Part shown: positions 30,812 through 54,877 of the stretch, one piece after another | Numbering within the stretch: the stretch's first letter is position 1 | Layout: every line of letters starts with the position of its first letter | Assembly (NCBI GenBank): GCA_014898415.1 | Contig: RCTD01000021.1 | Location: forward strand, 62,001-126,000 | Origin: Stromatinia cepivora | Lineage: Eukaryota; Ascomycota; Leotiomycetes; Helotiales; Sclerotiniaceae | DNA length: 64,000 nucleotides | Reading direction: 5' to 3' | Notes under the pieces: model-generated | Databases searched by the model: none | What the model was told of the DNA's origin: nothing | Seen by the model: the letters and a program-made list of their open reading frames with translations, nothing else | Translations under genes and position numbers: made by a program

Positions 30812-30818
30812 AGCAAGT

Positions 30819-30829
30819 TGGCGCAGTGG
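30819..30829 (+). promoter_or_regulatory. Pol III A box of tRNA-iMet
   Basis: TGGCGCAGTGG fits the TRGYNNARNGG consensus at every position. The partner B box (GATCGAAAC in the mature sequence) is split by the intron after GATCG. Confidence 0.85.
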
Positions 30830-30867
30830 AAGCGCGCCGGGCTCATAACCCGGAGGTCCCCAGATCG

Positions 30868-30925
30868 GTAAGAAATCACTGTCACCAGATTACAGTCATG
30901 ACATTTATACTAACATTATATCCAG
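30868..30925 (+). other. Putative spliceosomal-type intron inside tRNA T-loop
   Basis: 58 nt, GTAAG donor, exact TACTAAC branch sequence at 30908-30914, CCAG acceptor. The size is typical of introns in the protein genes of this window (50-130 nt). Because the base before the intron and the last intron base are both G, the boundary can slide by one; the GT-AG parse is used. Confidence 0.8.
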
Positions 30926-30952
30926 AAACTGGGACTTGCTAAAGCAACAATA

Positions 30953-30959
30953 TTTTTTT
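30953..30959 (+). terminator. Pol III T-run terminator of tRNA-iMet
   Basis: Seven consecutive T residues 12 nt after the discriminator base. Confidence 0.8.
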
Positions 30960-52185: not shown

Positions 52186-54877
52186 TTACCTAGAAACAAC
52201 ACCCTTAACAACCCCCGCAACAATTTTCCTACCCTCAATAGCAATCTCCCCAATTTTACTCTCATCACCACTACCCTCCTTAAGCCAACGCTTCAACAAA
52301 TCATTGCTTTCTTTAGGTTTAACATTATTTCCTCCTGTACCAACCGTAATATGTGCTACTTCATTAGTGCATTCCCAACCATTGTCGACTAATCGGGCTA
52401 CAATAGCCATGATGCGATCATCCCATACGATCTAATTATGTTAGTTTTCATCTGATTGATTGTGAAAAAGAAATAGAACATACTCTCTCTAGCATAACTT
52501 GACAATCACCAAATTTGCCTGGATTCCAAGGATCGCTTGCAACTACTCCTTCGTGCATATCACTGTATTTTTGCCATAACTCGGGAAAATTTTTGGAGTT
52601 GGCTCGATGTATGAGGGTGACGTGAAACTCGGGCTGAACTCGACGAGTTTTCTCTAGTACTCTGTAAAATCTAGCCTTATTCGGGGATACACGGCCGAAC
52701 GCATCGTCAAGTGCCTCTTTGATCTCGTTTTGAGGGAGGGAAATGGAGACGTATTCTAATGGCTTCTTTTTGGTGATCTGTGGTAACTGTGATTATTATC
52801 GGTCAGCATTATTCGATAGTGTACATTTTTGTCTTATATCATTTCCTTCATCTTCACGTACAGGTCTGTTTTCCTTCTGTTGGTTCTTATTGTTGTTCTT
52901 AGGCCCGCGACTAAGGTCATGTCTGAGATCTGGTTTGTAATCACTCATTGCAAGTTGAATGGCCTCATCAAGGTCCTCGCTCGTAGGTAAGTCGGTAAAC
53001 AACTTTGGGTATTGTGCTGAAAGCTGTCCGATAACAGTCTCAAGGTTTTCTCGTGAGTCCTTGGTAGGATCCAGCTCGATAGAAGAATCAAATCCATCAT
53101 CAGGTGATGCGAACATATTTACTGGTTCAAAACGTTGTACAAATCCTTCCATGATGCCCACGACTTTCTTCATATCCGTTGCTGCTTGAAGGGTTTGATG
53201 ATTATCACCTCGTGTAAGTACTCGATCCTGAGTAACTTGGCGAACTTTATCGAGAGATCCCTTATCGTGAACAAAGTTTAACACGACTAATCGAACGTGT
53301 GGGTGCGTAAGATGGACATCCCCAATCAATTGTGCTCGTTCATGCCTCGAAGCATTATTTCGATCAGCAAAGACAACTGGTTTCTCTTCGAGCTGTGTCA
53401 AAACTTCGTTGGTAAATCGAGGTGGACGAGCCTTTCCTGTAATGTTATCATTTTGAACATGTCCCCAACCAAAAAGATGGCTAAGAGCAAGCGCAATAGT
53501 TGTCTTTCCACAACCAATTGTAGCAACTGGAACTAGAATAACATTATTGCTCACTTCATTCGGTGAACCTCCTAGCTGAGAATATTCTTGGCGAATGATA
53601 TCCGAACCTTTGAGATTAACTTCCTTTAGGAAATCGTCTCTCAGCTTAATGATACCATGATTGTGCGCATACTCTTTTCCTAATTTAGGATCCTCGGAAA
53701 GTCGGTTTCGTGCAAACAAAAGGTATTCTTCTGTGATCTTGACGTGCTTCTTGAAACGAGGAGGTTTCTTGGCAATCAGGGCCTTTGTACATTCACGCCA
53801 TTGTCTATACATAAGATATGGCTCCTCGAATTTGTATTTGAAAAACCAATCCGAATATGATTCCATTGATCCAGTACGAGCCTTGCAACGAATAACGAAA
53901 CCTTCGATATCACGTCCTTGATAAGACCCAGTTTCAGCTACTTCATCAAGGAAAGATTTAGCGACTTGAATATCGTCCATAATCAGAAAATCGGTCTTCT
54001 TGAATCCCCATTCCGCTGCAAAGGCCTGAACTTGATCTCCAGGGTATGTCATGAAATCTGGGAGATTGATATTGATTCCGTGAAGATAAAGTCCGGCATC
54101 CTCTTTACCATAAGCTAAAATGTGCTCCTCGAAATCATCATCGCAAAGCTCAGCGACTGCAGTAGCATTTCTCTTCCTTAGCTCTCTGGCGAGATCCTCT
54201 CGAGTTCTTCCAATGGCTTGAAGTTGCTTGTCGACCCATCTGTCGGCAGCCTTTGCGTGGCTCATTTCTGGCTTGTTTCCTTGGCCAGTGGAATGCTTGC
54301 TACAAACCAATAGAGTACCATCGTGAAGTCCACTAATAAAGACAATACATCCATTCTCTTTGAGACTCAACTCATAAGGACCCAGGGTTTGATTTTCGAT
54401 ATTGCTCCATTTCGTAGTACTGACCTCTTCCGTGTTAAAGAACTTATCATAACCACGAACTGAAATTTCTGGTTGACCTTTTTCATTTTTGCTGGTAAAA
54501 AGACCTCGTGCGTATGTTGGTAAATCATCACGCTTGTAGTCCCAATCTTGAAAACGCCAAGACTCGACAACAATTTTTGCTGGAGACCCATCGACTTGAA
54601 AGGGAGTTTTCTTGCAGCTAAAACCATGTTTCTTTCCTTTGCCGGCGCTATCATTCAGATTTCGAAGAAGTTTTTGGACTTCTTCTACATCTTGAGATTT
54701 ATAAGGAACTTTTTCATGTTTAGTCATAGCGATCGAATATTTTCGTGAATTTGTAAGAGTGGAGTTGGAGGGGTATGAATTAAGTACAAGTTGTGATATG
54801 GAGGATGAACCGTTTTTATGTATGCGAGTTGAAAGAAATCTTAAGCCTGGGCTGAATAGTCTGCTGGATAAAAGCAT
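52186..54877 (-). CDS. TRL1: Fungal tRNA ligase (tRNA splicing and HAC1 mRNA ligation)
   Basis: Exons 54877..52862, 52786..52484 and 52431..52186 give 854 residues. Trifunctional enzyme joining tRNA halves after intron excision and the UPR mRNA. Adenylyltransferase domain with nucleophile Lys173 in SLKENGCIVF; polynucleotide kinase P-loop VPVATIGCGKTTIALAL near residue 455; C-terminal cyclic phosphodiesterase with two HxT motifs, EFHVTLIHR and VAHITVGTGG. The second intron-exon junctions restore these; the first exon alone ends before the CPD domain. The first 50 residues (SSRLFSPGLRFLSTRIHKNG...) are basic, Ser-rich and acid-free, like a mitochondrial presequence. MTKHEKVPYK at residue 51 is a likely alternative start. 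Confidence 0.95.

Follow-up and report, generated by a model that had tools for sequence, protein, structure and literature searches.

Canonical introns of nuclear transfer RNA (tRNA) genes lie at position 37/38, have neither GT-AG ends nor a branch signal and are cut out by the tRNA endonuclease; they break the gene, and their removal is needed for function. Non-canonical tRNA introns, some of them in the T arm, occur in nucleomorphs, Cyanidioschyzon and Crenarchaeota, and where their mechanism is known it involves a bulge-helix-bulge and the tRNA endonuclease (available parts of PMC4090602 and PMC3978253). The word stem spliceosom is absent from the main text of PMC4090602, as far as that text was available. 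We analysed a 64,000-nt stretch of the genome of the fungus Stromatinia cepivora (contig RCTD01000021.1, positions 62,001 to 126,000; the window), in which an initial annotation had reported an initiator tRNA-Met gene with a spliceosomal-type intron in its T-loop. We confirm that every initiator tRNA gene found in this fungus is interrupted in the T-loop by a short intron of the messenger RNA (mRNA) type.

Introns of this type are known from other structured RNAs of fungi. The U6 small nuclear RNA (snRNA) carries them in a small transcript of RNA polymerase III (Pol III), and the U6 gene of S. cepivora itself has one of similar size and signals (described below), in keeping with the initial annotation, which had cited U6 as a precedent. 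Those of the U3 small nucleolar RNA (snoRNA) combine GT-AG ends, RCTRAC and a short distance to YAG; the same source, in its accessible sections, names U3 and U6 as the sole small structured RNAs for which frequent interruption is known (PMC5832005). The other precedent first cited, the ribosomal DNA (rDNA) of lichens, also stands: it holds short mRNA-type introns in a transcript not made by RNA polymerase II (Pol II), and a 57-bp intron was removed from RNA polymerase I (Pol I) transcripts in yeast (PMC8527467, available part). The signal recognition particle RNA of Cryptococcus was considered as a precedent and rejected, since PMC4605306, as far as available, argues against introns there. 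The present host differs from all of these in being a tRNA, rather than an snRNA, a snoRNA or a Pol I ribosomal RNA (rRNA). To our knowledge a tRNA with a spliceosomal intron has not been described, and none appeared among the titles and abstract beginnings listed by searches of the open-access literature; most subscription papers lie outside it, and the negative is therefore weak evidence of novelty.

Anatomy and census of the initiator tRNA genes

The window gene (30812-30941, plus strand) reads directly as three segments, a 56-nt exon, a 58-nt insert and a 16-nt exon. Exon 1 (30812..30867) covers positions 1-57 of an initiator tRNA-Met(CAT). It contains an unbroken A box, TGGCGCAGTGG, at 30819..30829 and the initiator-type anticodon arm GGGCTCATAACCC at 30839..30851. 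The insert (30868..30925) opens the T-loop between G57 and A58, and direct reading bore out the anatomy claimed for it. It begins with the 5' splice site GTAAG (30868..30872), contains the branch site TACTAAC (30908..30914), whose presumed branch A at 30913 lies 12 nt before the intron end, and ends in CCAG, with the 3' splice site CAG at 30923..30925. Exon 2 (30926..30941) covers tRNA positions 58-73. Because a G is common to both junction ends, the junction may shift by one base; the GT-AG ends fix its placement.

As initially claimed, removal of 30868-30925 gives an initiator tRNA. The cloverleaf of the joined sequence is fully paired, with all stems complete. The features expected of a eukaryotic initiator tRNA are all present: A1-U72, three G-C pairs beside the anticodon loop, the CAT anticodon, A54 and A60. 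ARAGORN called a tRNA in none of the four unspliced initiator genes of this genome (see below) and called all four spliced sequences tRNA-Met(cat). The available part of PMC3978253 gives A54U55C56 as an initiator tRNA feature. Unspliced, the window gene scores 24.8 bits with Rfam against a cut-off of 29 bits and is therefore not listed by default window scans.

The assembly surveyed comprises 55,666,819 bases in 48 contigs. A 34-nt initiator core, with up to three mismatches allowed, matched it four times, each time exactly, on contigs 5, 10, 14 and 21. The exons (56 + 16 = 72 nt) are identical across the four genes, and all four are interrupted at the one site G57/A58, after position 57 as first described and not at 37/38, by inserts of 57, 53, 53 and 58 nt. 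When the spliced 72-mer was searched in the assembly, it matched only these interrupted genes, and those with its exon 1 part alone. Neither the anticodon arm joined to a continuous T-loop nor an uninterrupted T-arm with up to three mismatches had any match in the assembly, and the 13-nt anticodon arm occurs in it four times, never outside the interrupted genes. A general tRNA search (RF00005), in which 63 of 3161 candidates were scored, gave at least 62 matches; the initiator genes were not among them. The split-gene arrangement had no match in either of two contig collections; as they contain viral and prokaryotic sequences, the negative is uninformative.

The initial annotation had proposed a census of the initiator genes of this genome and had named an assembly error as a way in which its claim could fail. 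The census found no intact initiator gene and placed the insert at the same position in four of four copies. We rejected an assembly error or a single disrupted pseudogene as very unlikely, because three further copies are interrupted too, and the four carry different inserts at one and the same position.

The four introns align with each other at 70-79%, against 59-63% for shuffled letters, and the exons at 72 of 72 positions. With the splice signals left out, between 5 and 23 of 500 shuffles aligned as well as the intron interiors in five of the six pairs, and 51 of 500 did so in the remaining pair. This suggests that the introns descend from a common ancestor. A T-run common to the genes lies within the first 40 nt downstream, a segment that was matched by 1 to 16 of 500 shuffles in five pairs and by 98 of 500 in the other. 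Upstream, the 60 nt next to the genes align at the shuffle level or slightly above it, and blastn comparison of about 1.5 kb on each side of the four genes gave chance-level pieces only (E 0.17 or worse). Judged by these alignments, the genes seem to be old duplicates of one intron-bearing gene that have diverged everywhere but in the exons. Exon 2 is a mere 16 nt, lies beyond the diverged intron and is constant in all four copies, as expected if selection acts on the joined product. The inserts have diverged between flanking exons that stayed the same, a pattern that speaks for such selection; gene conversion limited to exon sequence is conceivable, though contrived.

Splice signals and introns in other RNA genes

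All four inserts begin with GTAAG and end in TAG (two genes) or CAG (two genes), which fits GT-AG ends, the fungal donor GTRNG and the acceptor YAG. The branch consensus CTRAY is present in each, as CTAAC in three and CTGAC in one, and 10-12 nt separate the branch A from the end of the intron. Invariant columns of the four-intron alignment are densest at the splice signals, where the block ACTRACA is constant apart from R. Among 400,000 shuffled versions per insert, donor, branch and acceptor fell in place in 11, 9, 7 and 12.

The initial annotation had likened the insert to introns of nearby protein genes in size and signals, and a comparison with eight such introns of the window agrees with it: lengths are 53-58 nt for the initiator inserts and 50-70 nt for the protein introns, and the distances from branch A to intron end are 10-12 and 9-14 nt. 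The protein introns were chosen by motif and open frame (12 candidates joined, nine tested with Pfam, eight compared), and they therefore inform on size and branch distance, not on motif frequency. A choice by coding score alone had been tried and replaced, as it gave one candidate and, in a looser version, 122 clusters that were largely noise. Seven of the nine joined proteins have a Pfam match whose coordinates span the junction; in the eighth, an anthranilate phosphoribosyltransferase, the junction lies close to the start of the catalytic domain, and the ninth matched no family. We conclude that the insert has the anatomy and the signals of a U2-type spliceosomal intron and would be removed by the spliceosome.

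Spliceosomal-type introns occur in small RNA genes of three RNA families of this genome, the initiator tRNA, U6 and U3. The single U6 snRNA gene found (contig 6, minus strand, Rfam match 2125355-2125461 and just upstream) has a 53-nt GTAAGT...ACTAAC...TAG intron between the 5' stem-loop and TGGTCAATTTGAAACG; its exon boundaries were judged from yeast sequences and are presumed. Two U3 snoRNA genes were found, on contigs 33 and 37. One has a 106-nt spliceosomal-type intron and the other, unlike the initiator genes, is an intronless paralogue, which confirms the junction of the 106-nt intron.

The ordinary tRNA splicing route also seems to be present. The window encodes the fungal tRNA ligase Trl1 at 52432-54877 on the minus strand, and the length of many other tRNA genes leaves room for an anticodon-loop intron, ARAGORN anticodon calls being unreliable for those. 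On contig 12 (624580-624714), a tRNA match of 57.2 bits has a long insert and the ARAGORN anticodon CTA; this tRNA would read UAG if its intron lies at 37/38, its boundaries being uncertain.

Transcription and alternative explanations

All four initiator genes have a run of five to seven T that begins 11-15 nt after the end of the tRNA; in the window gene it is a seven-T run at 30953..30959 (plus strand), a probable Pol III terminator. For comparison, a run of at least four T occurs within 25 nt downstream of 46 of the 62 other tRNA genes; among 3000 random flank positions the share is 17.2%. TTTT is found in none of the four initiator introns versus four of the eight window protein introns, a small sample. 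The downstream T-run and the TTTT-free introns fit Pol III, which probably transcribes the initiator genes despite a split B box.

The split B box is among the points that weigh against functional, Pol III-transcribed and spliced initiator genes. An exact GWTCRANNC is present in 62 of 62 other tRNA genes and in none of the four initiator genes, where the intron divides it. No substitute exact GWTCRANNC was found on either strand of the four genes or in the 150 nt downstream, and the best partial matches in them agree at five or six of the seven fixed positions. With the B box split and not replaced, the transcription of the initiator genes is not explained. A TATA-like element stands within 75 nt upstream of two of the four initiator genes and of 41 of the 62 others, and the B-block TFIIIC family PF04182 gave no match, a result of little weight as just two candidates were scored. 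Two points concern splicing: the comparison introns from protein genes were selected by motif and open frame, and the case for splicing draws on the sequence of a single genome. There is a likeness in Cyanidioschyzon, whose tRNA genes, disrupted and permuted ones included, have been proposed to be transcribed independently of TFIIIC and driven by a TATA box upstream (PMC3978253, in its available part).

If Pol II were the polymerase, the tRNA would be cut from a longer spliced transcript. Such an origin is compatible with spliceosomal removal; Pol II transcripts are the usual substrates of the spliceosome, and the split B box also counts in its favour. We consider it unlikely, since the T-run 11-15 nt downstream of every initiator gene and the lack of TTTT in the introns are both expected of Pol III genes.

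Alternatively, the tRNA endonuclease could excise the insert as a non-canonical tRNA intron and Trl1 could ligate the exons, as in some algae and archaea. The Trl1 gene in the window and the many tRNA genes that, judged by length, look interrupted in the anticodon loop are in its favour. However, with two geometries and two registers considered, none of the four genes showed a complete 4-bp helix of a bulge-helix-bulge at the junctions, the best having three of four pairs (relaxed forms of the motif lie outside this test), and the four introns share no fold. The inserts sit at 57/58 in four of four genes and not at the endonuclease-type 37/38, and removal by the endonuclease leaves GTAAG, CTRAC and YAG unexplained. 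We regard this route as very improbable.

It is just as improbable that the four genes are decaying pseudogenes and that the true initiator gene is missing from the assembly. An assembly of 48 contigs may have gaps, and an intact gene could sit in one. Against this, the exons are the same on four contigs while introns and most flanks have diverged, and each of the four copies found has kept its splice signals and is split at the same place. A miniature degenerate group I intron, for which fungal rRNA offers group I introns of comparable length (56-81 nt; PMC3160393, available part), can practically be dismissed: exon 1 and the intron both end in G, the four introns have no common secondary structure or pairs, and the mRNA-type signals would be unexplained.

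Proposed maturation of the initiator tRNA

Taking the evidence together, we are confident that the four genes are functional initiator tRNA genes, their transcripts probably made by Pol III and matured by the spliceosome; this assessment, including the order of processing that follows, is what we infer from the sequences. In the pre-tRNA made by Pol III, a U2-type intron of 53-58 nt would open the T-loop. The spliceosome would read GTAAG, CTRAC and YAG and ligate G57 to A58. A T-loop that carries an intron would be unable to fold into the elbow or to have A58 methylated, and it would hinder those enzymes of end processing that recognise the T-arm. The T-loop and elbow would thus form, A58 would be methylated and the ends would be trimmed efficiently only after the intron has been removed. 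Splicing may therefore come early in maturation and serve as a quality gate.

Since both the T-loop and the B box are split in all initiator genes found, this fungus, and perhaps its whole clade, is likely to depend entirely on spliceosomal processing of a Pol III transcript to initiate translation in the cytoplasm. If so, the supply of initiator tRNA could be coupled to splicing capacity, and a block of splicing should halt initiation directly. A tRNA gene would have to be transcribed with its B box divided, and gene finders for tRNA would call the initiator missing in such genomes. The splicing of tRNA and the splicing of mRNA are taught as the work of distinct machines; in this fungus, the mRNA machine seems to be required for an essential tRNA.
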